DNA of 64,000 nucleotides from Cyclobacterium sp. (lineage in GTDB: Bacteria > Bacteroidota > Bacteroidia > Cytophagales > Cyclobacteriaceae): the NCBI RefSeq assembly GCF_014762705.1, contig NZ_JABURL010000119.1, positions 124,001-188,000 of the forward strand, written 5' to 3'. Each line of letters starts with the position of its first letter. The stretch's first letter is position 1. The translations under genes were made by a program, and so were the position numbers. Below the pieces are notes generated by a model that was given only the letters and a program-made list of their open reading frames with translations, searched no databases and was not told the DNA's origin. Shown piece after piece: positions 40,967 to 55,549 of this stretch.

Positions 40967-41713
40967 ATGGTCGGTCATATTTCGCAAAGCAATGGTTTGT
41001 TTTGTAAATCCTCATTTTTATACAATTTGCATTCTGAAAAATCTATTTTGGAAATAGCGAATTCTTTGATAAATTTATCACTACGGCCGTTTCATCACCT
41101 TATTCACGTTACCATTATCAAAAATCTAGTCAACCATACCGACGATGACCTATTAGTTCTTTTAAAAAAGGGGGATAGGGATGCTTTTAACTGCATTTAC
41201 AACAGGTATTGGAAAGGATTGTTTTTCTGTGCGCTTAAGAAGCTGGGAGAAAAAGAAGAAGCAGAAGACCTCATTCAGGACTTATTTGTTTCAATTTGGA
41301 TGAAAAGAGAAGATTTTGAAATTAGTTCTTCTTTGAAAGCCTATTTGTTTACCGCATTAAAATACAAAATTATTAACCATTTTGAATTTAAAAAAGTCAG
41401 GAGAAAACATCTTGCCACCTTAAAGGACGCATTTAGTGAGCTTGACAATGGAACGTCCAATACATTGCTTGCAGAAGAAGTGGAAAAAAGGGTGGAGGTT
41501 GGTATTAATAAATTGTCTCCAAAAGTAAAGCTGGTTTACCAATTAAGTCGTGATGAAAATTTATCCTTGGATGAAATTGCTGAAAGACTCGAGGTTTCAA
41601 AACAGACCGTTAAAAATCAAATATCAAAAGCGCTAAAAATACTCAAAGCACACCTTAACCATAGTTATTTATGGATCATTTTTGCCACTTTTATTTATTT
41701 AATATTTAGTTAA
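40967..41713 (+). CDS. ECF RNA polymerase sigma factor (second)
   Basis: FecI-like sigma factor controlling Region C. The sigma core starts near residue 57 (DDDLLVLLKKGDRDAFNCIY) and includes region 2 (AEDLIQDLFVSIWMKREDF) and region 4 (LSPKVKLVYQLSRDENLSLD and the VSKQTVKNQISKALK helix). A C-terminal hydrophobic stretch (SYLWIIFATFIYLIFS) is common in this subgroup. The first 55 residues after the only ATG (40967) do not resemble the family, so the true start is probably downstream at a non-ATG codon (a TTG lies near 41066). It is followed by FecR and an STN-type SusC, its expected circuit. Confidence 0.9.
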   Translation: MVGHISQSNGLFCKSSFLYNLHSEKSILEIANSLINLSLRPFHHLIHVTIIKNLVNHTDDDLLVLLKKGDRDAFNCIYNRYWKGLFFCALKKLGEKEEAEDLIQDLFVSIWMKREDFEISSSLKAYLFTALKYKIINHFEFKKVRRKHLATLKDAFSELDNGTSNTLLAEEVEKRVEVGINKLSPKVKLVYQLSRDENLSLDEIAERLEVSKQTVKNQISKALKILKAHLNHSYLWIIFATFIYLIFS

Positions 41714-41917
41714 TCTCATTTTATCTTTATGGTGTAAAAGGCAATTTTATTCTAATTCCATAATAAAGATTGCCATTGAACAGTACAATATATTTTTTTT
41801 ACAAAAAGAATAATCGTAATATTTCTAAAAAATGCTTTTATACCATATAGTTGTCTTGGGTTTTTGCCCGTTTTGATATTATTTTTTTTTGCCATCGATA
41901 GTACTCCGGTGGTATTT

Positions 41918-41943
41918 AACTGACTTTACTATATCAGTCAGTT
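41918..41943 (+). terminator. Hairpin between sigma and FecR genes
   Basis: Perfect 8-base arms (AACTGACT / AGTCAGTT) with a 10-base loop and a short T-rich run after it, 35 bases before the FecR start. It may terminate or attenuate sigma-gene transcription before FecR, setting their ratio. Confidence 0.45.
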
Positions 41944-41977
41944 TTATTTGGAATTTATATTATAGATCAGGCCGGAA

Positions 41978-42973
41978 TTGAGAATAAAAAAAATTAAAGA
42001 AATTTTAAGGAATTATCGATTTGGTCGTACATCAGCCAGAGAAGATCAGGTTATAGACCAATGGTATGATTCGTTAAATAATCGGAAGAAGAATTTTACC
42101 AAAGAGGAGCTAAGTAGCATAGGTCAAAGTATTTTGAAGAGGATAAATGGTAAAATAGATGCAAAAGAGGATGCAAAATATGCTGCAAGTCCTATCAGTA
42201 AGGGTTTAATACCTATTGGATATACCTATATTCTTCGAATTGCAGCTGTTTTAATTATAAGTGTGATTACTGTTTCACTATTGGTGAACAATCATTCAAA
42301 ACTTAAAAATGACACCATTTCTCATTTGGATGTAAAAGTTAATGAAGTCCATTTGTCAGACGGAAGTATTGTCTGGCTAAAGAGCGACAGCAAGTTATAC
42401 TATCCGGATCAATTTGACCGTGATAGCAGAGAGGTTCATTTGGAAGGAGAAGCTTTCTTTGATGTGGTAAGAGATAAGAATCGACCCTTTATCATCTATT
42501 CAAAAGACATGGTTACCAAAGTATTAGGCACCAGTTTTAATGTAAGGGATTACGAAGAGGAGAGTGAAAAGGCTGTTGAAGTATTAACGGGAAGTGTCAG
42601 GGTGTCCTTAAGTCGGGAAGATGGAAGTCGGGAAAATGTGGTATTAAAATCCCGGGAAAAGGTAAGTTTCAATAAGGCAGCCCCTTCAGGGATGGGGATA
42701 AAAAAGAATGATTCTCCTGTCTTTGTTCCTGAGACTACCAGGGAGTTGAAGTTCGAGGAAGATCCTATACAGGAGATTATTGACAAATTGAATCAGGTAC
42801 ACGAGGTGGACATTCGTATAAAGAATAAAGCATTATATGGTTGCCGTATTACTGCTAATTTGACCTACGAAACATTAGATGTTTGCCTTGAAATTATATC
42901 GAGGGCATTAAATGCCAAATATTACCAAATAGAAGATCAAATTTACCTTGATGGAAAGGGATGTTTAAACTAA
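41978..42973 (+). CDS. FecR-type anti-sigma factor (second)
   Basis: Anti-sigma regulator of 331 residues, partner of the sigma at 40967. N-terminal helical sigma-binding part (1-75), one transmembrane helix at about 86-108 (YILRIAAVLIISVITVSLLV), FecR domain (about 120-230; EVHLSDGSIVWLKSDSKLYY and GEAFFDVVRDKNRPF) and a C-terminal DUF4974 domain (about 250-331). The start is a TTG at 41978, the same unusual choice as the other FecR gene in this window. It should receive the signal from the STN domain of SusC-3. Confidence 0.93.
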   Translation: MRIKKIKEILRNYRFGRTSAREDQVIDQWYDSLNNRKKNFTKEELSSIGQSILKRINGKIDAKEDAKYAASPISKGLIPIGYTYILRIAAVLIISVITVSLLVNNHSKLKNDTISHLDVKVNEVHLSDGSIVWLKSDSKLYYPDQFDRDSREVHLEGEAFFDVVRDKNRPFIIYSKDMVTKVLGTSFNVRDYEEESEKAVEVLTGSVRVSLSREDGSRENVVLKSREKVSFNKAAPSGMGIKKNDSPVFVPETTRELKFEEDPIQEIIDKLNQVHEVDIRIKNKALYGCRITANLTYETLDVCLEIISRALNAKYYQIEDQIYLDGKGCLN

Positions 42974-43010
42974 AAAAAGTATATGTGAATGAATTAAAAT
43001 GAAAAAAAAA

Positions 43011-43043
43011 TAGGCCAAAAGTGTTTGAGCCACTTTTGACCTA
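43011..43043 (+). terminator. Hairpin between FecR and SusC-3
   Basis: Thirteen-base arms (43011-43023 and 43031-43043, TAGGCCAAAAGTG with its complement, one G-T pair) around a 7-base loop, 82 bases before SusC-3. The following bases are only moderately T-rich. It probably ends or attenuates the sigma/FecR transcript so that SusC-3 needs its own sigma-dependent promoter. Confidence 0.6.
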
Positions 43044-43124
43044 ATTATTTCCCTACTGCGAAGGCATATAGCCTAAAGGGATGTTTTTGCCTTAATTATT
43101 GTGTAACAAAAACTTTACAAATGT

Positions 43125-46100
43125 ATGAAAATTCAAATACACCACACTGCATTATTTACAAAAATAATGAGAATATCATTGGTTCAACTGATTATTCTGC
43201 TGATAGTTACAGGGGTTTCATTTGCTGGCCCTTCTAGCGCACAGAATGTATTGAAAATCAATCTTTCATTGGAAATTAATGAGAGGCCTATAAAGGAAGT
43301 TTTGGAGCAAATTGAAGAAATAGCTGATGTGAAATTTGCTTATTCGGTTGGGATGGTAAAGCCTGAAGAGACCATTTCGTTAAACATTAAAAATAAGGAG
43401 TTGGGTTTGGTATTGGATCAGATTTTTTCCCCACGAAACGTAAAGTACTTTGTGCTGGGGAAACAAATCATTTTAAACCAATCCAATATTAGTGATATAA
43501 AAAGTAAAATTTCTCAAATTAAATTAATTGAAATGATTATTTCGGGGAAGGTAACTTCTCCAGATGGGGAGCTATTACCCGGAGTAACTGTTTTGGTGAA
43601 AGGAACCTCCAATGGGACTGTCACCGACATCAATGGAGAATACAAATTGGAAGTTCCGGGCAGTAGCGGAGTAATATTAGTGTTTTCTTCCATCGGGTTT
43701 AAAGAAAAGGAGATTAGCGTTTCTGAAACATCTACCGTAAATGTAATTCTTGAAGAAGATATTCAAGGTTTAAATGAAGTGGTTGTAACTGCTTTAGGCG
43801 TGGAAAAGGATCCTAAAAGCATTACTTACGCCACTCAGAAAGTTTCTCCTGATGAAGCGATAAAAGTGAAAGATCCAAATTTCATGAATAGCCTGGCAGG
43901 AAAGGTAGCAGGAGCAGTTATTACCAAAGGTAATTTTGGGCCGGGAAGTGCACCACGAATCCTTTTGCGCGGGAATAAATCACTAACGGGCAATAGTGAA
44001 CCTTTGTTTGTTCTAAACGGGGTACCCATGATTGGCGGCACAGACATCCTTTCCAATTATAATCCTGAAGATATTGAAAGTATTCAGGTGTTAAAGGGAG
44101 CATCTGCTGCGGCTTTATATGGAAGTGAAGCAGCCAACGGAGTTATTCTGGTCAATACAAAGAAAGGAATGCATGGTGTTTCTAAGGTGGAGTTTTCATC
44201 AACCTTTACTGTAGAAAATGCTGTGGATTTGCCAAAACTACAAACCTCATACGGTCAGACAAATCCAAATTTTAATGATAGTTGGGGGGAGAGAATCAGT
44301 AACGGGAGCGACAGTCATCTGAAGGAATTTTTTGAGCCGGGTCAAACCATGATCAATTCGGTTTCATTTTCTAATGGGAGTGAAATTGGTCAGATTTATA
44401 TGTCCTATTCAAATACCAATGCAAGCGGAATACTTCCTGAAAATGATTTAGAGCAGAACAATTTTACGGTAAGGTTAACCTCTCAGTTTTTTAATGATAA
44501 ATTATCAGTTGATGCTTCCATAAACTACACCGACCAGAAGATCTATAATCAAAATTCAGCAGGGGGCTATAGTGCGCTTCCAGGAATATATTCCTTTCCG
44601 GTAGGGGATGATTTTTCAAAATACAACAAGGACAATTTTGAAGTTTGGGATCCTGTTCGGGCGATGTATGTTCAAAATTGGCCCTACATCCGGAATGAAA
44701 CCTTTCCCAATCAAAATCCTTACTGGGTGCAGAACAGAAATCAGCGCGATTTTTTAAGGGATCATACCATTTCTGCCATTACAGCCAAACTTGAGCTTTA
44801 CAGCTGGTTGGATTTACAAGGGAGAGTTACCTATGATAAGATATTTGATAAATCGGAATTTAGAAATTATGCCAGTACTCAGGCGACTGTAGCTGGTCCA
44901 AATGGAGGATACGGAATCAGTCGATCTTCTGTAAATAATATTTATTCTGATTTGTTATTGATTGGTAATAAAAACATTAGCAGTGATTTTAATTTGGCAG
45001 GGACACTGGGTTTTAGTAATCGGGAAACTACCAGCAGTGGGTTGAATCTTTCAAGTACGGTTGCCACCTCCTTGACATTTCCCAATTATTTCTCCGTTTT
45101 TGCTTTAAATGGATTATTTAATAAAAGTGAAAGCCTTAGAAAGAGCATGACTCAGGCGGCATTTGGAAATGCTACCCTTGGTTTCAGGGATAAAGTCTAC
45201 TTGGATATAACAGGAAGGAATGAATGGAGTTCTACTGTTTCTCAATCCTTCTTCTACCCATCGGTGGGCGTTTCTTATATTCTAAAAGATGCATCGAACA
45301 GTCGCTCAGGTTCTTCAGGTGTTTTATCCTTTGCAAAAGTATCTTCTTCGTATGCGGAGGTTGGAAACAGTCTTCCTTTTGGTATTGCCAACTGGACACC
45401 ACCGATGTCTTTGGATAATAATGGAAATATTAATCCCAGAGGCACACTTCCTTATTTTGATGGTAGTGATACCTTAAACCTTAACCCCGAAAGAACGAAG
45501 TCCTATGAAGTCGGCACGGAGCTTCGGTTTTTCAATAACCGATTGACTGTTAATTTAAACTATTACAATGCCACCACATATGATCAAATACTACAAATTC
45601 AGGCTCCAGCCGGAGCAGGTGCATCAAATTTCTGGATAAATGGAGGCATTATTCGAAATAAAGGAATAGAAGGAATTATCAATTACAACACAAATTTAGG
45701 AAGTGTCAAATGGGCTTCATCGCTCAATTTTTCACACAATAAAAATCAGATCAGGCAATTGAGTGACCTTCTAGAAGCTGAAAGGTTTGTGTTGACCAGT
45801 TTTAATCAAAGCAGGCTGGTATCCATCTTCCTGACAAGACCCCAGGATGGGGAATATGGTGCTTTTGGAGACATGTATGGCAGGACCTACCAAAGAGACG
45901 ATGAAGGAAACCTTATAACCAATGAGGCAGGGGTTCCCCTGGTCTCACCAAACCCGGATCAGTTCATTGGGAATGCAAACCCTGATTTTCTGGCTGGATT
46001 GAATAATTCCTTTGCCTATAAGCAGTTTTCTTTGTCTTTCCTGATAGACAGCAGGTTTGGAGGGGGGGTAGTCAACCGAACAGAAGTGTGGTTGGACTAT

Positions 46101-46475
46101 AAAGGCCTCTCTGAACGAACTGGAGTCGCAAGGGATAATGGAGGAGTTCTGGTAAATGGGCAGGTAGTGGATGCCAAAGAATTTTATTTAAACCAAACCG
46201 GTGCGGGAGCCACAGCTATAGCCTCTGAATATTTCTACGATGCGACAAATGTTAGGTTAAGGGAGTTTCAAATAGGTTATAATTTGCCAATAACCAATGA
46301 CTTCATCAAGGAATTAAACTTATCATTAATCGGACGTAACCTGTTTTTCTTTTTCAAAAATGCTCCATTTGACCCTGAGATCAGTGTAAATACTTCTCCC
46401 ACCTCCGAAGGTATTGCTTCCTTTAGTCAACCCCAAACGAGATCATTTGGGGCTAGTTTAAGAGCTATATTTTAA
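43125..46475 (+). CDS. SusC-like TonB-dependent receptor with STN domain (SusC-3)
   Basis: Outer-membrane transporter of 1116 residues. Signal peptide ending near SSAQ (residue 40), STN domain (about 45-115; ERPIKEVLEQIEEIADVKFA), carboxypeptidase-regulatory-like domain (about 138-210, ISGKVTSPDGELLPGVTVLV), plug with the variant signature NEVVVTALGVEKDPKS in place of VVVGYGTQKK, LKGASAAALYGSEAANGVIL, and the barrel. The TALGVEKD plug signature marks a SusC subgroup different from SusC-1 and SusC-2, matching the different type of SusD encoded next. The STN domain links it to the FecR/sigma pair upstream. Confidence 0.96.
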   Translation: MKIQIHHTALFTKIMRISLVQLIILLIVTGVSFAGPSSAQNVLKINLSLEINERPIKEVLEQIEEIADVKFAYSVGMVKPEETISLNIKNKELGLVLDQIFSPRNVKYFVLGKQIILNQSNISDIKSKISQIKLIEMIISGKVTSPDGELLPGVTVLVKGTSNGTVTDINGEYKLEVPGSSGVILVFSSIGFKEKEISVSETSTVNVILEEDIQGLNEVVVTALGVEKDPKSITYATQKVSPDEAIKVKDPNFMNSLAGKVAGAVITKGNFGPGSAPRILLRGNKSLTGNSEPLFVLNGVPMIGGTDILSNYNPEDIESIQVLKGASAAALYGSEAANGVILVNTKKGMHGVSKVEFSSTFTVENAVDLPKLQTSYGQTNPNFNDSWGERISNGSDSHLKEFFEPGQTMINSVSFSNGSEIGQIYMSYSNTNASGILPENDLEQNNFTVRLTSQFFNDKLSVDASINYTDQKIYNQNSAGGYSALPGIYSFPVGDDFSKYNKDNFEVWDPVRAMYVQNWPYIRNETFPNQNPYWVQNRNQRDFLRDHTISAITAKLELYSWLDLQGRVTYDKIFDKSEFRNYASTQATVAGPNGGYGISRSSVNNIYSDLLLIGNKNISSDFNLAGTLGFSNRETTSSGLNLSSTVATSLTFPNYFSVFALNGLFNKSESLRKSMTQAAFGNATLGFRDKVYLDITGRNEWSSTVSQSFFYPSVGVSYILKDASNSRSGSSGVLSFAKVSSSYAEVGNSLPFGIANWTPPMSLDNNGNINPRGTLPYFDGSDTLNLNPERTKSYEVGTELRFFNNRLTVNLNYYNATTYDQILQIQAPAGAGASNFWINGGIIRNKGIEGIINYNTNLGSVKWASSLNFSHNKNQIRQLSDLLEAERFVLTSFNQSRLVSIFLTRPQDGEYGAFGDMYGRTYQRDDEGNLITNEAGVPLVSPNPDQFIGNANPDFLAGLNNSFAYKQFSLSFLIDSRFGGGVVNRTEVWLDYKGLSERTGVARDNGGVLVNGQVVDAKEFYLNQTGAGATAIASEYFYDATNVRLREFQIGYNLPITNDFIKELNLSLIGRNLFFFFKNAPFDPEISVNTSPTSEGIASFSQPQTRSFGASLRAIF

Positions 46476-46538
46476 TTCATCGAAAACGTTCGTTTCAAAT
46501 GAATTTTTCCTGAGTATGTCAACTAAAATATAAAAAAG

Positions 46539-48122
46539 ATGAAAAATCATATCATAAATAAAACCTGTTTGAATGCAATCTTGATGGCCGGAATCCTTTT
46601 ATTGTCGGGTTCTTGTGTGGAATACATGCAGGATCTCAATAAGGATCAAAAGTTAATTACAGATGAATTGCTAAGACATGATGCAAATGAAGGTGGAGTT
46701 TCCCTTCCAGGTATGCAACTTGGGATAATGGATGTCCTCACCACCTGGCGAATTGAGATGCAACAAAACTTAAACGCAGATAATTATGGCGGATATATGA
46801 GTCTACCGGCACCATTTTTCGATAACAGAAATAATGGAACCTATGCGATGGTTGATAGCTGGAACAATCAAATTTGGTTAGTACCCTCTGAAAAGGTGTT
46901 GGATCAATGGGTCATGATGAAAAAAAAGGGCTTTGATCAATCCTACCCGGACCTTTATGCCTTGTCGATTATTTTTAAAACTTTTGCAGGCCATAGGCTG
47001 GCCGATATATTTGGACCGATTCCTTATTCAAAATACGGTGAATCCAGTGATGTGAGTTTTGATTCGGTAGAGGAAGCATATGAGGTGTTTTTTGCGGAAT
47101 TGAAAGAAGCTGTGGCGGTTTTAAAGCAAGCTGAAGAAGAAAATCCGGATGCAGATAAGGTAAGGTATGCAAAATTTGATAAATCAAGATACGGAGGAGA
47201 TTATGCTACCTGGATAAGAGTAGCCAACACCTTACGGCTAAGACTTGCCATTCGGATTTCAAAAGTAAATCCCGACAGGGCTAAGCAGGAAGCTGAGAGC
47301 GCTTTGTTGGATGGAGGAGTTTTGACCGCGGGTGATGCCTCGTTTGAAATGTCAACCGGGACCATACATCCTCTGGAAACAATTACTTCAGCATGGCAGG
47401 AAACCCGCATAAATGCAATGGTTGAAACATTACTTGGGGGGTATAATGATCCGAGATTACCCGTTTATGCCATACCTGCTTCAGATCCCGCACTTAATGG
47501 GCAGATCAAAGGAGTGAGATCAGGAGCCATTTTTGGTCCGCGACCTTATCTAGGGTTTTCTCAAGTGAATTTTTTCGGAAATCCGTATGTGAAAGTAATG
47601 GATGTGGCCGAGAGTTTCTTTCTTCGGGCAGAAGGGGCGCTCAGGGGTTGGAACATGGGAGGTACAGCAAAAGACTTCTATGAGGAGGGTATTCGCGTTT
47701 CCTTTAGTGCAAATGGTGTTGGAGGCGCCGAGGAATACCTCAATAATAGCACGGGTAAACAGCTACCCTATGTAGACCCCTACAATGCAGAAAACAATGC
47801 CTCTCCGATGACAGATATTACCGTAAAATGGGAAGAAAATGATTCCTTTGAAAGGAAGCTTGAAAGAATTATCACTCAGAAATGGATAGCAATGTATCCT
47901 GATGGTCAGGAAGCCTGGTCTGAGTTTAGGAGGACAGGCTATCCCAAATTATATCCTGTTGCCGTTAATTACAGTGAATTTTCAGGAGGAGAATTTATAA
48001 AGCGGATAAGTTATCCTACCTCCATTACCAATAGTAGCCAGGCTTCTGTAGCCGAAGCAATTAATTTGTATTTAAATGGAGAAGATAATATTTTCACTCC
48101 TCTTTGGTGGGATGTGGATTGA
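46539..48122 (+). CDS. SusD/RagB-like lipoprotein, divergent type (SusD-3)
   Basis: Substrate-binding lipoprotein of 527 residues, probably the SusD-like_2 type. Lipoprotein signal ends AGILLLSGSC (Cys26). Recognisable parts: LYALSIIFKTFAGHRLADIF, FGPIPYSKYGE, RVANTLRLRLAIRISKVNP and YVKVMDVAESFFLRAEGALRG, then ITQKWIAMYPDGQEAWSEFR. The middle and C-terminal blocks differ clearly from SusD-1 and SusD-2, so its ligand is probably of another chemical kind. It is followed after 16 bases by the PVC-type protein. Confidence 0.92.
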   Translation: MKNHIINKTCLNAILMAGILLLSGSCVEYMQDLNKDQKLITDELLRHDANEGGVSLPGMQLGIMDVLTTWRIEMQQNLNADNYGGYMSLPAPFFDNRNNGTYAMVDSWNNQIWLVPSEKVLDQWVMMKKKGFDQSYPDLYALSIIFKTFAGHRLADIFGPIPYSKYGESSDVSFDSVEEAYEVFFAELKEAVAVLKQAEEENPDADKVRYAKFDKSRYGGDYATWIRVANTLRLRLAIRISKVNPDRAKQEAESALLDGGVLTAGDASFEMSTGTIHPLETITSAWQETRINAMVETLLGGYNDPRLPVYAIPASDPALNGQIKGVRSGAIFGPRPYLGFSQVNFFGNPYVKVMDVAESFFLRAEGALRGWNMGGTAKDFYEEGIRVSFSANGVGGAEEYLNNSTGKQLPYVDPYNAENNASPMTDITVKWEENDSFERKLERIITQKWIAMYPDGQEAWSEFRRTGYPKLYPVAVNYSEFSGGEFIKRISYPTSITNSSQASVAEAINLYLNGEDNIFTPLWWDVD

Positions 48123-48138
48123 ACGAATCAATAAAAAT

Positions 48139-51100
48139 ATGCTAAAAAAGAATTTGTGTGTACCTGCAATTAACGTTTGTCTTTATCACCTTCGGATCCT
48201 ACCTCTACTTTTGGGGGTAGGACTGACGGTTTTTGCCTGCCATTCCGGGGTTCCATCTGATGATAGGTCATTGGAAAATGCCTTGTCTACATTTTCTCTG
48301 GAAGAAGGCTTCCAGATTGAGCTTATTGCAGGTGAGCCGCTTGTATCAGATCCCGTCGCCATGGAAATAGATGAACAAGGCAGGTTATATGTTGTAGAGA
48401 TGCATGGTTACCCGCTGGATCTCAGTGGTTCAGGCAGAGTGAAACGTTTATCAGATACAAATGGAGACGGGATAATGGATGAAAGTGTCATTTTTGCGGA
48501 TAGTTTGCTGATGCCTACAGGGATCATGCGCTGGAAGCAAGGCCTAATCGTAACAGATCCACCAAATGTATTTTATTTGGAAGACAGTGACGGAGACGGT
48601 AAGGCAGATATCAAATCAACCCTCCTTACAGGCTTTGCCTTATCTAATCCCCAGCACAATGTTAATACCCCTAAATTGGCTTTGGATAACTGGATTTATT
48701 TGGGACATGAGCCTTCGGTTACCACCACCATTTACGAAGATAAATTCGGTGATAAAGGTACCGATGTCTATTTCCCGGAGAAGCCGGACTTGAACCGACT
48801 TCCCCAAAATGCAGGGGGGCGAAGCATCCGGTTTAAGCCTGACTCCTATGACCTTGAATTGCTGAGTAGCAGGACCCAATTTGGCCATACTGCCGATGCC
48901 TTCGGACACCGGTTTTTGGTAAACAACAGCAACCATATCATCCAGGAAGTTCTTACCGCAGAATACCTGCAAAGAAATCCTCATTTGGTGATTACAGAGG
49001 TTACTCAATCTTCCTCTGACCATGGAAGTGGCGCAGAGGTTTTTCCGATCACCATCAATCCACAGCATCAGCTATTGACGGACCTGGGCGTTATGACATC
49101 TGCCTGCGGACTGACGGCCTACCTGGGAGCAGCTTTTCCGGAGCGATATGATCAGGCCACCTTTGTTTCAGAACCGGTAAGTAATATCGTACATGTGGAT
49201 TTTGTAAAGAGCGATGGGACAGGGTTTATAGCCTCCAGGGAGCATCCTGATAAGGAGTTTTTGGCGTCCACGGATGCCTGGTTTCGGCCAGTCAATGCCT
49301 ATATTGGCCCTGATGGAGCCTTGTATATCCTTGATTATTACCGTCAGATTATAGAACATCCCGAATGGATGGCAGAAGAAGTGGTTCAATCGGGAGCCTT
49401 GTATAATGGTACAGACAAAGGTAGAATTTACCGCATTACACCCAAGGGCACATCACCGATTGATTGGTCCGATAAATTGACTTTAGGGGAAGCATCTCCC
49501 GAAGAATTAATGGGTCATCTGTCTCATAAAAATGCCTGGTGGAGAATGAATGCCCAAAGGATATTAGTAGATCGGAAACCGACGAATCTTAGCCCCTCTT
49601 TAAAGCAAATTGCAGTCTCCGGGGAAAGCCCTATGGGCCGGCTTCATGCTTTATGGACATTGCAGGGAATGGGAGCGCTTGATGTAGAAACGGTAGCCGG
49701 GGCATTAAATGACCCTGTGCCCGGGGTTCGCGAAAATGCGGTGAAATTATCAGAGCTCTTTTTAGCTTCTTCCCCCGAGCTTGTCCCTCAATTGCTGGCT
49801 TTGAAAGATGATTCCGATCCAAAGGTTAGGTTTCAGTTGATGCAAACACTGGGGTACATTGAAAGTGAAAGTGCTTTTCAGGCAAGAAAAGAACTTTTGT
49901 TTAGAGATATTGATGATAAATGGGTGCAATTGGCAGCGCTTTCGGCTCCGTTTTCAGAAAGTAGCCGGCTTATTGATCCGGTCTTGAACCAATATACCCG
50001 CACGCCTGCCTATGATGGTATGGTGCAAAAACTGGCCTCCATGGTTGGTGCCAGTATGGATGAAAGGACTATTTTCACCATGGTGAAACGGGCAACCCAA
50101 CGCAATGCGCAAGACAACTACAATTGGCAACCTGCTCTTTTGCGTGGTTTGGCACAAGGAATCAAGAGTAAGGAATTGGAAGGTACACATAGCGCAGCTG
50201 CTGGCCTTTTGGCAAGTAATATTTTTAATCACCCCTCAGCAGAAGTACAGGAAGCAGCCCTGCAGGTGCTGGAGGGTATTGGACTGGATAACGTCGCAGG
50301 TAAGGAAGAGGCTTTGGCAGAAGCAAGAAAAATTGCCATGAACCGAACGTTAAGTGGTGAAGAAAGGAGCTTAGGCATCCGGTTTTTGGCTTTGACAGAT
50401 CCGATCCAATACCACGACATGTTGGTAGGGATGGTGCAGGTTGGAGAGCCACTGCCTGTTCAGTTGGCTGCTTTTCGTGCTTTAAGTAAATCTGAGGATA
50501 GTTCCTTTTCAAAATTGGTGATCGATCGGTGGGAAAGTTTCACGCCCGAATTAAGGGATGCAGCTGTTAGTGCGATGATGATGAATGGTGAGCGGATTAC
50601 TGTTTTATTGAGTGCCCTGGAGGATGGATTGATTCAAAAGGCCACTATTGGCTGGAGAAGAAGTGTAGGCTTGATGGCCAACAAAGACGAAACGCTCAGG
50701 GTAAGGGCCAGGGCCATTTTGACCCGGCCAGAAGGCGAAAGTGAGAAAATTATGGAGACCTACCAACCTGCCCTGGAACTTAAGGGAACCATAGATGAAG
50801 GGGCCAGGGTTTTTCGGGAAAATTGCGCTATCTGTCACCAAATGGGAGAGGATCAGGGGCTTGCCTTTGGGCCAGACCTATCCTCTCTGAAAAACAGACG
50901 TCCTGCCAGTATAATGACGGATATTCTCAATCCTAATTCGTCCATTGCGGATGGCTTTGATCTTTGGGAAGTAGAATTACAAAACGGGGAGCTTCATCAG
51001 GGACTTATTTCCTCGGAGACTCCCACGGCAATCAACCTCAGGAATGCAGGAGGAATTGACAAGAACATTTCCAGAACCAATATAAAGACGCTGAAACTAA

Positions 51101-51192
51101 TAGAAATGTCTGCCATGCCCACCGGCCTTGAGCAAGGTATTTCGGTACAGGAAATGGCAGATTTACTTGCTTATATACGTAAAGCCGAATAA
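48139..51192 (+). CDS. PVC-type haem-binding dehydrogenase-like lipoprotein with HEAT repeats
   Basis: Large exported redox protein of the membrane-bound-dehydrogenase type known from Planctomycetes and Bacteroidota, 1017 residues from the ATG at 48139. The longer frame from 48076 overlaps SusD-3 and is unlikely. Lipoprotein signal ends VGLTVFAC. A six-bladed propeller like that of PQQ-dependent sugar dehydrogenases covers about 40-440 (DEQGRLYVVEMHGYPLD, VTDPPNVFYLEDSDGDGKAD, AYIGPDGALYILDYYRQIIE), HEAT-like helical repeats about 450-860, and a C-terminal cytochrome c domain with CAICHQMG (CxxCH) and LNPNSSIADGF. Expected role: oxidation of a carbohydrate or related alcohol with electrons passed to the haem. 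Substrate unknown. Confidence 0.9.
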   Translation: MLKKNLCVPAINVCLYHLRILPLLLGVGLTVFACHSGVPSDDRSLENALSTFSLEEGFQIELIAGEPLVSDPVAMEIDEQGRLYVVEMHGYPLDLSGSGRVKRLSDTNGDGIMDESVIFADSLLMPTGIMRWKQGLIVTDPPNVFYLEDSDGDGKADIKSTLLTGFALSNPQHNVNTPKLALDNWIYLGHEPSVTTTIYEDKFGDKGTDVYFPEKPDLNRLPQNAGGRSIRFKPDSYDLELLSSRTQFGHTADAFGHRFLVNNSNHIIQEVLTAEYLQRNPHLVITEVTQSSSDHGSGAEVFPITINPQHQLLTDLGVMTSACGLTAYLGAAFPERYDQATFVSEPVSNIVHVDFVKSDGTGFIASREHPDKEFLASTDAWFRPVNAYIGPDGALYILDYYRQIIEHPEWMAEEVVQSGALYNGTDKGRIYRITPKGTSPIDWSDKLTLGEASPEELMGHLSHKNAWWRMNAQRILVDRKPTNLSPSLKQIAVSGESPMGRLHALWTLQGMGALDVETVAGALNDPVPGVRENAVKLSELFLASSPELVPQLLALKDDSDPKVRFQLMQTLGYIESESAFQARKELLFRDIDDKWVQLAALSAPFSESSRLIDPVLNQYTRTPAYDGMVQKLASMVGASMDERTIFTMVKRATQRNAQDNYNWQPALLRGLAQGIKSKELEGTHSAAAGLLASNIFNHPSAEVQEAALQVLEGIGLDNVAGKEEALAEARKIAMNRTLSGEERSLGIRFLALTDPIQYHDMLVGMVQVGEPLPVQLAAFRALSKSEDSSFSKLVIDRWESFTPELRDAAVSAMMMNGERITVLLSALEDGLIQKATIGWRRSVGLMANKDETLRVRARAILTRPEGESEKIMETYQPALELKGTIDEGARVFRENCAICHQMGEDQGLAFGPDLSSLKNRRPASIMTDILNPNSSIADGFDLWEVELQNGELHQGLISSETPTAINLRNAGGIDKNISRTNIKTLKLIEMSAMPTGLEQGISVQEMADLLAYIRKAE

Positions 51193-51240
51193 TGCAATTG
51201 CAGGACTTATTACAATAATTTCACAAGTAACCCAAAGAAA

Positions 51241-52620
51241 ATGAAATTGATATTCATGAAACGTTTGATACTATCACTACTGGCTTTCGGAGCCTTTCAG
51301 CTGACTGGTTTTGGAGTAGCCCCCAAGCCCCTGAATGTAGGGCTTGCAAGAGTGATTATTACTCCTGAAACGCCGGTTAGGCTAACCGGCTATTCCAGCC
51401 GGGATGTTCCCTTCGAAGCTGTTCATCACGATTTATGGGCCAAAGTGATGGCCTTTGGTGATGAAAAAACAGGATACCGTATAATTATAACTGTAGACTT
51501 ACTGGGTATTCCGCATCAGATTACGCAAAAAGTAAGGGAAGCCCTTGCCCGGGAAATCAATATATTACCTGCGAACCTCTCCATTTGTGCCTCCCATACC
51601 CATAGTGGTCCGCAAATTGGAAATATTGTTTCTCATTTTCATAAACCACTGGATCCTGACGAGCTAGCTGAGATTGCCCTTTTTGCCATGGGACTGGTGC
51701 CAAAATTGAAAACCCTGGCCATGGAAGCGATTGAAAACGCTTCCCCGTCGCTGGTATCCCATACCAAAGGTGAGGTGGGTTTTGCAATCAATAGGAGGAC
51801 TTCCATTAACCCAAATGGTGTTACGGACCATTCATTACCGGTAATGAAAATTACAGACATGAAGGGAGAAACAAAGGCCGTGTTGGTAAATTACGCCTGT
51901 CATGCAGTAACCCTTGGCCCTTTAAATAATGTGGTTCATGGGGATTGGGTAGGGGAGGCCCAACTCCAGATGGAAGAAAACTTACCTCCCGGAGCCATGG
52001 CCATGGTGGTCATAGGCTGCGGTGCCGATCAGAATTCTTCACCTCGGATGAATACAGATAAGCCGGAGATGGATTTAGTATATGCGAAAGACCAGGGAAA
52101 ACAAATTGCGGATGAGGTGCAGCGCTTGCTGGCTACCAATGACTGGAAGGGCATTGGACAACTGCCTGAGGGCAAAATGAAATATGTGGAACTGACCTTT
52201 GCCACTATGCCGGACCCGAAAAAACTGGCAGCGGATGCCAAAGGCTCGGGCAGGACAAGCAATTACTCCCTGTTATTACTGGGTCGAATGGCTAGAAGCG
52301 GGGATATTCCTGAGAAAATAGATTATCCCATTCAGGTTTGGGATTTCGGGAAAGAGTTGGTAATGATCTTTATGGCCGGAGAGGTAGTGGTAGATTATGC
52401 CTTAAGGCTAAAGCAGGAGTTGGGAGAAGATCGGGTTTGGGTAAATGCCTATGCCAATGATATGCCCTGCTATATTCCCTCGCTCCGGATATTGCGAGAG
52501 GGTGGGTATGAAGCAGAAACAGCCATGATTGGGTACGAGAAGCCCTCCAAATTTACTGAGGACGTGGAGGAGACGATCATGAGCGGCATTTATTCTATTT
52601 TACCAAAATCAAGTAAATGA
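51241..52620 (+). CDS. Neutral/alkaline ceramidase-like hydrolase, first copy
   Basis: Exported zinc amidase-like protein, 459 residues, related to the N-terminal catalytic domain of neutral ceramidase. Signal peptide ends near TGFG; an in-frame ATG at 51256 is an alternative start. Likely zinc ligands are in ICASHTHSGPQIG (residues 116-128) and NYACHAVTLGPLNNVVHGDW; the region GCGADQNSSPRMN corresponds to the nucleophile loop (GNxGDVSPN in classical ceramidases) but is altered. The C-terminal immunoglobulin-like domain of true ceramidases is lacking. It probably hydrolyses an amide-linked acyl group or similar bond in the SusCD-3 substrate. Overlaps the next gene by four bases. Confidence 0.82.
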   Translation: MKLIFMKRLILSLLAFGAFQLTGFGVAPKPLNVGLARVIITPETPVRLTGYSSRDVPFEAVHHDLWAKVMAFGDEKTGYRIIITVDLLGIPHQITQKVREALAREINILPANLSICASHTHSGPQIGNIVSHFHKPLDPDELAEIALFAMGLVPKLKTLAMEAIENASPSLVSHTKGEVGFAINRRTSINPNGVTDHSLPVMKITDMKGETKAVLVNYACHAVTLGPLNNVVHGDWVGEAQLQMEENLPPGAMAMVVIGCGADQNSSPRMNTDKPEMDLVYAKDQGKQIADEVQRLLATNDWKGIGQLPEGKMKYVELTFATMPDPKKLAADAKGSGRTSNYSLLLLGRMARSGDIPEKIDYPIQVWDFGKELVMIFMAGEVVVDYALRLKQELGEDRVWVNAYANDMPCYIPSLRILREGGYEAETAMIGYEKPSKFTEDVEETIMSGIYSILPKSSK

Positions 52621-53975
52621 TGAGATTTTCTCAATTAATAGTTGCCACTCCCTTTAAGTCCGACCAAAAGAATAGATCCATTGTAGTCTTTTTCGTCTTG
52701 GTGCTGGTTCTGCTTTTATCAAGCCAAATTTCTTTTGCCGGAGACTTTAGGGCAGCAGTGGTCAAGGAAAATATTACCCCAAAAGTATCAAAATTCCTTT
52801 TAGGGTATGGAGCTCGTCAATCTGAAGGTGTTCTGGATAGTATTTACCATCAGATTTTACTATTAGATGACGGTCAGTCAATCTTTGCGCTGGTTTCCAC
52901 CGATATTTGTTTGGTCTCTCCCGCCACCTATGATCGGGTAGCCAAATTGGTGGAGCAGAAGTTTGGGATAACACGAAATAATTTTTGGTGGTCGGTAACA
53001 CATACGCATTCTGCACCGGAAGTAGGCGGGCCCGGACTCCCGGCGGCTTTTATGGGAGAGCGGTATACCCACCCCATTGATACGACCTATACGGATTTGG
53101 TAACCTCCAAATTATTGGGTGGTATTGAAAGAGGGATTAGTGAGCTGTCTCCTGCCAGCCTGGGCGTGGGTTGGGGACATTCATTCGCGAATATTAATCG
53201 AAGAGCCAGGGATATTGATGATATTGCTTTTTTGGGGTTGAACCCGGATGGACCGGTAGACCGTAAGATTGGTATACTAAAAATAGTGCATCAGGAAGAC
53301 CACCGATTAATGGCCACGGTGGCCAATTATGCAATACATGGGACAGTTTTGGGGGGACAAAATTTATTGATTAGCGGTGACGTTTCGGGAGTGGTATCCA
53401 ACTATGTGGAAGAAAGATCAGGAGCGCCAATGCTATTTATCAACGGTGCTGCTGGTAACATCGCACCTATTTACAGTGTATATCCAGATGCCAGGTCAGG
53501 AAGACTGAATCAATTCAGAAGGCTGCTGGGAGATAAAATACTGATGGGCAGTGAGGAAATCCAGCACTACGAAGATTGGGTTTCTTTTAGTGCATCGGAG
53601 ATGGAGTTTCTGACCCCTGTGAAGGAAGGATTAAAGTGGCCTGAAACTTTAAATGATTACCTTGTGGATGCCACGGCCGATGTTAAAATGATTAAAGTAC
53701 CTGCGCGTTTTCTGAACATCAATGACAAAATAGGTATTTGGGCAAGTCCCCTGGAACTGTTTTGCGAAATTTCGAATGAGGTAAGAGATCGGTCTCCGTT
53801 TCCCTATACCTTTTATTATGGGTATACCAACGGCTGGTTGGGGTACATGCTAACCGAGGAGGAATGGGCCTACAAGGGATATGAACCTACGGTATCCCCA
53901 TTTGTTCCCAATGCTGGGACAAAGTTCGGAGAGGCAGTATTGTCGTATCTACAAAGTGAATTAAAAAGTAAATAA
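52617..53975 (+). CDS. Neutral/alkaline ceramidase-like hydrolase, second copy
   Basis: Second ceramidase-type amidase-like protein, 452 residues, translationally coupled to the first by an ATGA overlap. Signal segment at about 22-40 (SIVVFFVLVLVLLLSSQISF). Candidate zinc ligands are in SVTHTHSAPEVGGPG and NYAIHGTVLGGQNLLISGD; the nucleophile loop reads INGAAGNIAPIYS, closer to the classical ceramidase loop than in its neighbour. Overall similarity to the first copy is low apart from these motifs, so they are old paralogues with distinct substrates rather than a recent duplication. The C-terminal domain of true ceramidases is again missing. Confidence 0.82.
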   Translation: MMRFSQLIVATPFKSDQKNRSIVVFFVLVLVLLLSSQISFAGDFRAAVVKENITPKVSKFLLGYGARQSEGVLDSIYHQILLLDDGQSIFALVSTDICLVSPATYDRVAKLVEQKFGITRNNFWWSVTHTHSAPEVGGPGLPAAFMGERYTHPIDTTYTDLVTSKLLGGIERGISELSPASLGVGWGHSFANINRRARDIDDIAFLGLNPDGPVDRKIGILKIVHQEDHRLMATVANYAIHGTVLGGQNLLISGDVSGVVSNYVEERSGAPMLFINGAAGNIAPIYSVYPDARSGRLNQFRRLLGDKILMGSEEIQHYEDWVSFSASEMEFLTPVKEGLKWPETLNDYLVDATADVKMIKVPARFLNINDKIGIWASPLELFCEISNEVRDRSPFPYTFYYGYTNGWLGYMLTEEEWAYKGYEPTVSPFVPNAGTKFGEAVLSYLQSELKSK

Positions 53976-53991
53976 TTAAACTAATAAAGAG

Positions 53992-55236
53992 ATGAAGTCA
54001 CTATTTTCAGTAACCGCATGTATAGTCAATTTATCTGTTTTCCTGGTTTTTACCGCAGGTGCCCAAAACCCGGATTTCCCCTGGCCGGACGGTAAAAAAA
54101 TGGCCATCAGTTTAAGTTTTGACGATGCCCGGGCTAGTAATCCCAGCCCTGGGGCAGCCTTATTGAATGAGTATGGGGTAAAGGCTACTTTTTATGTGGT
54201 TCCCTCCAGCATGGAAAGAGATATTCCAGGCTGGGAAATGGTGGTAGATACAGGACATGAGATTGGTAATCACTCTCTTTATCACCCCTGTAGTGGTAAT
54301 TTTGTATGGTCCAGAAATAAGGCCCTTGAAGATTACACCCTGGAACGAATGCGAAAGGAATTGATCGCCGCCAATGATGAAGTGGAGCGGCTACTGGGTG
54401 TGAGACCGGAAGTTTTCGCCTATCCTTGCGGACTTACGTACGTTGGTAAGGGAGAACGTACCCAAAGTTATGTACCCCTGATCTCAGAACTGTTTCTCTC
54501 GGGAAGGGGCTGGAAGGATGAAGCCCCAGTGGACCCCTATTATGTTGACATGGCACAGCTTACCGGTATGGAGATGGACAACAAGTCCTTTGAAGAAATT
54601 TTACCCTTAATAGAAGCGGCTGCAGAAAACCGGCAATGGTTGGTTTTGGCAGGGCATGAAACCAATACGGAGGGCAATCAAACTACCTATTTGAGCATGC
54701 TGAGAAAGCTTTGTGCCTATGCCAATGATCCGGCCAATGGTATTTGGATTGCTCCGGTAGGTACGGTGGCCAAATACGTGAAGGAAAAACGATCGTCCAT
54801 GGAAGGTAATTTAAATATTCCCGGTATTTCCGAGCCCTCAGAAAATGGAACAGTTTACCTTACATCGGAAAATGGCAAAGGGATAGGTCCTGATATCAAA
54901 TACATGCCCGAGTGGAACGCATTTGGGTGGTTTACAGCCAATGACAGGGTAGAATGGGATCTGGATCTTCCAAAGAAAGGTACGTACGAAGTATGGATGG
55001 AATGGTCTGTTTCGGATGAGGAGGCAGGCAAACCTTTTGTGCTGACCTCGGGCGATCAGACCATTGAAGGGATTGTAAAACCTTCCGGATCCTGGGAGAC
55101 TTTTCAGAAAACAAAGATAGGTAAACTGTCACTGGAAGCCGATTTTAACCGGATCATCGTGGCTTCCGGCGAGGAATTTGAAGATGGAGCATTGATGGAT
55201 TTAAAAGCCCTGACGCTGGTGCCGGTAGGGAAGTAA
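53992..55236 (+). CDS. NodB-type polysaccharide deacetylase with C-terminal beta domain
   Basis: Exported carbohydrate deacetylase-like enzyme (CE4/NodB fold), 414 residues, signal peptide ending TAGAQ. Catalytic landmarks: SFDDA (Asp44, Asp45), GNHSLYHP (metal-binding His94 and His98), FAYPCG (motif 3) and VLAGHETN near residue 220. From about 290 a beta-sandwich follows (FGWFTANDRVEWDLDLPKKG, then YEVWMEWSVSDEEAG) like the DUF5077/CBM6-type modules of Bacteroidota enzymes. It lies 16 bases after the second ceramidase-like gene and closes the Region C operon. N- or O-deacetylation of a glycan is the expected reaction. Confidence 0.88.
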   Translation: MKSLFSVTACIVNLSVFLVFTAGAQNPDFPWPDGKKMAISLSFDDARASNPSPGAALLNEYGVKATFYVVPSSMERDIPGWEMVVDTGHEIGNHSLYHPCSGNFVWSRNKALEDYTLERMRKELIAANDEVERLLGVRPEVFAYPCGLTYVGKGERTQSYVPLISELFLSGRGWKDEAPVDPYYVDMAQLTGMEMDNKSFEEILPLIEAAAENRQWLVLAGHETNTEGNQTTYLSMLRKLCAYANDPANGIWIAPVGTVAKYVKEKRSSMEGNLNIPGISEPSENGTVYLTSENGKGIGPDIKYMPEWNAFGWFTANDRVEWDLDLPKKGTYEVWMEWSVSDEEAGKPFVLTSGDQTIEGIVKPSGSWETFQKTKIGKLSLEADFNRIIVASGEEFEDGALMDLKALTLVPVGK

Positions 55237-55549
55237 TCAAAACGGGGAAAAATTTATTACTCTTGCATTTTTCTCGATTAGGAAGTAGGGTATTTCGTAT
55301 ATAGTAGTAGACCAGAATAGCATAGAATTCCGGTTAGTGGAATCTCCACGGTATAGAAGTCAGATCAATATCAGAAAACGCAAATTTCCTGTATCAGCAA
55401 AAAGGTAGCTGCTCCAAAAGGTGAAAAGGCCAGGAAATCGAAAACGTGATAAAAAGCCCTCCGGGGCTTTTTTAGTTTTTTGGCCGTAGTTTTGATCGTA
55501 CGGCATATTTATAAATAGATGAATTTGTTTTTTCTTGATTTAGCATTCC
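55237..55549. other. Convergent intergenic region
   Basis: 313 bases between the Region C operon and the reverse-strand LytTR regulator. Apart from the terminator at 55451-55480 I see no gene, repeat or other structured element. Confidence 0.6.
55451..55480. terminator. Bidirectional intrinsic terminator
   Basis: Nine-base perfect arms (AAAAAGCCC / GGGCTTTTT) around a 4-base loop (TCCG), then further T runs. It sits between convergent genes and serves both the deacetylase gene and the reverse-strand regulator at 55550. Confidence 0.88.

Follow-up and report, generated by a model that had tools for sequence, protein, structure and literature searches.

The window analysed here is a stretch of 64,000 nucleotides from the marine bacterium Cyclobacterium sp. 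(contig NZ_JABURL010000119.1, forward-strand positions 124,001 to 188,000). Between positions 40967 and 55236 it carries eight open reading frames (ORFs) on the forward strand, which according to Pfam and NCBIfam encode a sigma and anti-sigma factor pair, a SusC/SusD importer, a PVC-type cytochrome protein, two ceramidase-like proteins of family PF04734 (CerA and CerB) and a NodB-type deacetylase. An earlier annotation made from the letters of the window (the sequence-only reading) had described these genes as a self-contained SusCD operon devoid of glycoside hydrolases (GH), lyases and sulfatases. The eight genes are real, their coordinates and common strand hold and the names given to them are about right. 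We find no match to a GH, lyase or sulfatase family in any of the eight proteins with Pfam at E values up to 0.01. We propose, with about even chances of being right, that this SusCD locus serves the periplasmic catabolism of a sugar or glycoside that is first oxidised and then cleaved, without classical glycosidases.

According to this proposal, SusC and SusD would take up a glycan-like ligand, as expected from their families. A hydroxyl of the sugar would be oxidised at the dehydrogenase-type propeller of the PVC-type lipoprotein, and the cytochrome c domain of the same protein would take up the electrons, activities suggested by the fold and the intact CxxCH motif. CerB, together with CerA, may then split the oxidised product in a zinc-dependent reaction, either by hydrolysis or as a lyase, and the NodB-type enzyme may remove an acyl group bound to N or O, the likeliest being the acetyl of an amino sugar.

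The gene set is found repeatedly across genera. We compared 195 genomes, that of the window and 194 relatives. A cerB match of at least 53% identity is present in all 12 genomes of the genus, including the window's own; outside the genus, six further genomes of the family have one, in one case a fragment. The full eight-gene order is found again in G005, G009, G008 and, in another genus, G045; counting the window's own genome, it is present in 4 of the 12 Cyclobacterium genomes, and in five of the 12 only cerB and the PVC gene were found together. A cerB alignment scan of the genome contigs yielded 234 relatives, and the best 80 define 75 loci, mostly from Bacteroidota with three from Acidobacteria-type records. 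Counting a homologue at coverage above 40%, the PVC gene is present in 62 of these loci (51 adjacent to cerB on the same strand), NodB in 38, both in 35 and cerA in 13, with orthologues of SusC and SusD in 8. Within runs of genes on the same strand with gaps below 350 bases, the numbers are 60 for PVC, 37 for NodB and 35 for both. SusC, SusD and PVC stand together in 24 of the 75 runs, and 20 loci under 10 genus-level labels have a SusC-SusD-PVC-cerB-NodB run. The synteny check across Bacteroidota that the sequence-only reading had called for thus turned out in its favour: a set unique to this genome is ruled out and, because the set recurs in other genera, it is more than a chance arrangement.

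Counting a contig-cut fragment in L114 (56%), which falls short of the coverage rule, PVC is present in 63 loci. A GMC dehydrogenase had been considered as a replacement for PVC in L114; this idea was dropped as the last, contig-cut ORF of that locus is the PVC fragment. Among the 12 loci left without PVC, 6 lie on contigs shorter than 8 kb (L076, L085, L089, L095, L107 and L108), and L082 has a distant PVC gene only (25%). The three Acidobacteria-type loci (L125, L127 and L130) hold cerB homologues of 54-55% identity with no PVC gene detected; within about 4 kb of cerB each has an outer-membrane beta-barrel gene (1130-1165 aa), assigned to PF25183 in L125 with homologues in the other two.

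As a control, we examined five other PF04734 regions of the window's own genome and found PVC adjoining in one. The TIGR02604 cut-off is passed by 20 distinct ORFs in this 6.1 Mb genome, at least two of which adjoin PF04734 genes. With 20 PVC-type ORFs in one genome, a PVC neighbour alone is weak evidence, and it is the repetition across genera, rather than any single adjacency, that carries weight.

The oxidation step, already suggested by the sequence-only reading, is probable given the PVC-type protein itself (48076-51192; DUF7133/TIGR02604, HEAT and cytochrome c/TIGR02603). It has a lipoprotein-type cysteine (Cys55), a propeller at about residues 66-459, HEAT repeats and a cytochrome c domain whose CxxCH motif (residues 917-921) and Met1014 do not vary in any of the 38 sequences compared. 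The modelled propeller has the fold of the pyrroloquinoline quinone (PQQ) sugar dehydrogenases (sGDH/Asd/AA12), and its 16 best structural matches are all sugar dehydrogenases (VIA-align). A Foldseek search with the whole model places mostly helical-repeat proteins on top and sGDH (1cru) at rank 7. Residues His194-Asn195, present in 37 of 38 sequences, look like the HN motif of sGDH and may correspond to it. Dependence of the PVC protein on PQQ finds no support in genome content, with no PqqE above cut-off in 10 of 10 genomes.

The same architecture offers a different explanation, namely that the PVC protein is itself a hydrolytic glycosidase, that the operon is an ordinary polysaccharide utilization locus (PUL) with an unrecognised enzyme family, and that CerA, CerB and NodB only de-esterify or deacetylate. 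Purified Lac161_ORF7, a protein combining TIGR02604, HEAT_2 and cytochrome c, is reported to hydrolyse lactose with a Km of 1.8 mM (PMC5342196), and this report puts a caveat on our statement that the operon has no glycosidase. An invariant heme motif and Met1014 are, however, hard to square with a pure hydrolase, and the propeller fold matches dehydrogenases; the lactose report may, speculatively, reflect an oxidation-coupled reaction or a contamination. We regard a glycosidase role for the PVC protein as unlikely.

CerA (51241-52620) and CerB (52617-53975) supply the candidate cleaving enzymes. They score 45.9 and 60.4 bits against PF04734 (cut-off 32.1) and, as had been noted, differ from each other, with 22% identity over 241 aligned columns. 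Against the ceramidase equivalog NF041649 the pair reaches 15.4 and 32.7 bits for a cut-off of 1200. The CerB model has the ceramidase catalytic-domain fold and aligns with residues 3-489 of the ceramidase chain, so that the absence of the ceramidase C-terminal domain, claimed earlier for both proteins, is confirmed for CerB. The zinc site is retained: among 97 cerB-like sequences His129 is present in 96 (one gap) and His241, Glu380 and Tyr410 in all 97, and among 15 cerA-like sequences the first histidine is present in 14 (one gap) and the other three ligands in all 15. We assume that the corresponding ligands of the Pseudomonas aeruginosa ceramidase are His97, His204, Glu411 and Tyr448, numbers that agree with the aligned chain positions.

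The serine of the GDVSPN/GNLSPN motif is presumably the ceramidase nucleophile, a role for which a source was sought and none found. At this column the cerB-like proteins have Ala in 96 of 97 sequences (Ala283 in the window) and Asn in one, and the cerA-like proteins have Asn in 15 of 15. The pairing of Ala with Ser for CerB was seen again in two further comparisons. A serine lies next to this column in the window's CerA and in three Cyclobacterium-type cerA neighbours; among the other cerA-like proteins it is not conserved. Because the serine column holds Ala or Asn, the earlier statement that the activity is probably not plain ceramidase stands, and by this sequence test neither protein would be a ceramidase.

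These substitutions also bear on a type of substrate that the sequence-only reading had listed, an N-acyl glycolipid or sphingolipid-like compound deacylated by two ceramidase-type amidases. The PF04734 family and the ceramidase N-domain fold of CerB speak for a lipid, and a fatty-acid desaturase or GDSL lipase gene does occur in single loci. Yet the ceramidase serine is replaced throughout, no lipid-metabolism family appears among the 25 neighbour families listed out of 118, sugar genes predominate among the recurring neighbours, the propeller of PVC is like that of sugar dehydrogenases, and the module described below is of a sugar-binding type, judging from weak matches. We therefore set lipid deacylation aside as very improbable; an N-acylated aminoglycan, which the sequence-only reading had also listed, stays a possible substrate.

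The last gene of the operon (53992-55236) encodes a NodB/CE4-type polysaccharide deacetylase (PF01522, 65.6 bits) with a C-terminal CBM6-like module. An Asp-Asp pair and a His-x-x-x-His make up the metal motif of the CE4/NodB family (PF01522), and these residues (D44, D45, H94 and H98) are intact here and invariant in 19 of 19 aligned sequences. The family assignment made earlier is thus upheld; the specific name NodB is not, as TIGR04243 gives 18.1 bits for a cut-off of 240, and we use it at family level only. The module (residues 270-414, 54799-55236) is recognised by homology to modules at other cerB loci, which have weak CBM_6 matches (22 and 26.7 bits, cut-off 28.9); the window's own copy has no Pfam match.

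This module travels between the proteins of the set. Across the 75 loci it is carried by 42 proteins, 26 cerB, 12 NodB, 3 stand-alone and 1 cerA-like, with exactly one copy in each of 42 module-bearing loci. On cerB it is C-terminal in 23 (one cut by a contig end) and N-terminal in L109, L117 and L119. Where PVC, a PF04734 gene and NodB occur together (35 loci), it resides on NodB in 12, on cerB in 12 and alone in 2, and is missing from 9. Were the carriers independent, this complete lack of overlap would have a probability of 0.0016, a value that is indicative only as the loci are related. Module state changes at least 8 times on the PVC tree, where the least possible is 5, as estimated by a quick method with long-branch warnings.

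In the simplest interpretation, one sugar-binding module suffices for CerB, CerA and NodB together. Since there is one module per locus, on any one of them, the three proteins probably share one substrate; they may act on it separately or form one assembly. A bolder version holds that CerB founds a class of enzymes replacing glycosidases, in which a zinc enzyme of ceramidase fold cuts a glycosidic (or N-acyl) bond only after oxidation by PVC, and that CerB works in one outer-membrane complex with CerA, NodB and PVC, in which one common sugar-binding module has been shifted freely from subunit to subunit in evolution. We put this forward tentatively and consider it rather doubtful.

The importer suggests a glycan-like ligand. 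The SusC/RagA TonB-dependent outer-membrane transporter (43125-46475) matches TIGR04056 with 590 bits, and its STN domain (PF07660) reaches 17.2 bits only, under the cut-off of 28.4. The adjacent SusD-like lipoprotein (46539-48122) matches PF12741 at E 2.9e-153, giving the SusC-SusD adjacency of a utilization locus; the enzyme expected of a glycan PUL (a GH, polysaccharide lyase or similar in the operon) is absent by Pfam. SusD had been called divergent, a description that does not hold for an ordinary PF12741 member; its closest solved structure is a chitin-binding SusD (8j0p/8jxz), at E 4.4e-119. Two SusD families occur across the cerB loci, PF12741 in 8 and a cluster of 20 loci with a PF07980 representative, and SusD type changes at least 5 times on the PVC tree (by the same quick method, with long-branch warnings). 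The NodB family, the closeness of SusD to a chitin-binding one and the recurrence of pyridoxal phosphate (PLP) aminotransferases favour an amino-sugar substrate without proving it, and the substrate is probably an N-acetylated sugar.

We then took a census of neighbouring genes, covering 98 of the 178 ORFs in cerB runs, hand-picked to thin near-duplicates. The commonest Pfam families are xylose-isomerase-like barrels (5), SDR (4) and Gfo/Idh (4), followed by IlvD/EDD, gluconolactonase, Gluconate_2-dh3, M20 peptidase, Exo_endo_phos and GntP (3 each) and by aldose epimerase, GMC and others (2 each). The recurring families are mostly sugar-oxidation and sugar-acid genes. Daejeonella-type loci combine the cassette with xylose-isomerase-like, GntP, IlvD, SDR and gluconolactonase genes. 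At a Bacteroidales locus (L070:9971-19199) cerB and a GDSL lipase-like domain make up one fusion protein (707 aa); downstream of it is a NodB-type deacetylase-GH3 fusion (1031 aa), accompanied by DegT, Gfo/Idh and GH30 genes.

In C. qasimii (G008, L144) the operon is preceded just upstream by Gfo/Idh, class-III aminotransferase, SDR, cerC (a third PF04734 gene) and SSS symporter genes. The aminotransferase block abuts PVC-cerA-cerB-NodB in two more Cyclobacterium genomes, G010 and G011, where homologues of sigma, FecR and SusCD were not found beside these genes. It is partial in G002, and G045 has it elsewhere with its own SusCD-like pair. No orthologue of the aminotransferase was found in the window genome, G000 (best 38%), and its cluster is no more than a hint of a part in the window's system.

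These neighbours suggest a route through oxidation at C1, in which SusCD imports chitin-type oligosaccharides or N-acetylglucosamine (GlcNAc) derivatives, PVC turns these into an aldonic acid or lactone, which NodB and/or CerA/CerB then deacetylate or, in the case of the lactone, open, and the sugar acid is de-aminated and dehydrated in the cytoplasm, as in the ong pathway. It would explain the chitin-binding relative of SusD, the intact metal site of the NodB family, the GntP, IlvD/EDD, gluconolactonase and SDR neighbours of Daejeonella-type loci, the aminotransferase/SDR/cerC/Gfo/Idh/SSS block of the three Cyclobacterium genomes and the PLP aminotransferases in other PF04734 loci of the window's own genome. 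Against it, IlvD/EDD dehydratases use non-amino sugar acids, no orthologue of the aminotransferase was found in the window genome, KDG kinase and OngB-type deacetylase families are unmatched in the operon, and neither the eight operon proteins nor the 25 neighbour families listed out of 118 include a chitinase or hexosaminidase. The ong pathway itself employs an SSS importer, a deacetylase and a PLP enzyme (PMC9537276). In this complete form we consider the C1 route possible, though improbable.

The strongest single pointer to oxidised glycosides comes from another contig of the window's genome (C66; L150, 5274-10634, minus strand), where a fusion of PF04734 with PF06439 (3-keto-disaccharide hydrolase) lies directly beside a PVC paralogue. 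This locus also holds SusD, two BNR proteins, a DHDPS-family protein and a class-III aminotransferase homologue. The fusion abuts PVC in four of four further genomes (G004, G009, G029 and G105); the stretch around the aminotransferase in G005 has neither. A phmmer search with the fusion against solved structures returned nothing at E 0.001. On a further contig (C86; L058/L153), three cerA-like PF04734 genes occur in a SusD locus that also has a DegT aminotransferase, a PfkB kinase, a sugar/ureide permease and a LacI regulator.

Weighing against this pointer, a search with one query sequence placed a PF06439-type hydrolase in the neighbourhood of just one of the 75 cerB loci, where it lies on the other strand. 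As for the position oxidised, the IlvD, GntP and gluconolactonase neighbours favour C1; a slight preference for C3 comes from the lactose report, the GMC/Gluconate_2-dh3 pairs and the PF06439 fusion. We think it slightly more probable that the glycosidic bond is attacked once the sugar is oxidised, in the manner of 3-ketoglycoside pathways, than that C1 oxidation yields a sugar acid.

Upstream of susC lie the genes for an ECF (extracytoplasmic function) sigma-70 factor (40967-41713; TIGR02985 over residues 73-230), which probably begins further 3' than its first ATG, and a FecR-type anti-sigma factor (41978-42973; PF04773 and PF16344). The gaps from susC onward are 63, -47, 48, -4 and 16 bases; since they are short or overlapping, the genes from susC to NodB are likely co-transcribed. 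Short gaps had been described before, together with overlaps; the 47-base overlap of SusD and PVC would disappear with a PVC start at Met22 (48139). A terminator-like hairpin, a consensus match only, lies 3' of the operon (55451-55472, forward strand). Counts of consensus promoters and terminators are not above those in shuffled sequence (14 terminator-like hairpins in the region, 15.3 in shuffles), and what we take to be the Bacteroidota-type promoter pattern occurs 3 times in the window for 2.1 expected and never 5' of an operon gene start. The flanking genes scanned are regulators on the opposite strand: on the upstream side a histidine kinase, on the downstream side another histidine kinase with a response regulator. 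Elsewhere in the window, 14615-35442 is rich in sulfatases (five sulfatase genes, a PhoD-like phosphatase and Gfo/Idh among the proteins scanned), with large ORFs of SusC size nearby.

The regulators bear on whether the set might remodel peptidoglycan or the cell's own glycans instead of feeding on an external nutrient. Polysaccharide deacetylases often act on peptidoglycan, and some PVC-cerB pairs sit among LemA, M48 and DnaJ genes. The combination of SusCD with sigma and FecR suggests, from what these families do, substrate-induced import, and SusC and SusD recur with PVC in the runs counted above, making a role in envelope maintenance the least probable of the explanations considered here.

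Taken together, these genes describe a new variant of the SusCD locus, free of known carbohydrate-active hydrolases and built on two poorly characterised families. In the open-access literature searched we found no description of the cassette and little assigned function for PVC-type heme proteins or non-ceramidase PF04734 proteins, both of which are numerous in the window's own genome. The cassette links them to a deacetylase and an importer, providing a defined, repeatedly assembled set for testing, and the one-module-per-locus pattern is an experimental handle on proteins acting together. If oxidation before cleavage is correct, utilization loci seemingly empty of carbohydrate-active enzymes are being overlooked.

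Among known systems, SusCD PULs under ECF sigma/FecR control likewise place periplasmic enzymes in an operon with sigma, FecR, SusC and SusD; the window operon differs in having a PVC protein, a PF04734 pair and PF01522 in place of GH, lyase or sulfatase. Neutral ceramidases (PF04734; 2zws/2zxc from P. aeruginosa, human 4wgk) differ from the window proteins, in which the serine nucleophile is replaced, the C-terminal domain is missing (by alignment, for CerB) and scores fall far under the NCBIfam cut-off. The likeness of the PVC protein to Lac161_ORF7, the reported beta-galactosidase, is one of domain architecture. In PMC5342196 its cosmid is assigned to Chthoniobacter (Verrucomicrobia), the gene lies three genes from a DUF377 protein, and no PF04734 protein is mentioned ("ceramidase" occurs 0 times).

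In 3-ketoglycoside pathways a sugar 3-dehydrogenase works with a DUF1080/PF06439 hydrolase, as PMC9007349 describes. The likeness is the periplasmic oxidation of a sugar ahead of its cleavage, which we propose for the window operon; the operon has no PF06439 or GMC match, and PF06439 is fused to PF04734 beside the PVC paralogue in the same genome. The ong oxidative chitin pathway (PMC9537276) shows that oxidised amino sugars do serve as nutrients. The window operon differs from it by its use of SusCD, and the GH20 (OngA), D-aminoacylase-type OngB, OngC and KdgK families are unmatched among the eight operon proteins, to which this search was confined. Both systems would bring an amino-sugar derivative across the outer membrane and deacetylate it, and an SSS importer like that of the ong pathway is present in the related Cyclobacterium clusters.

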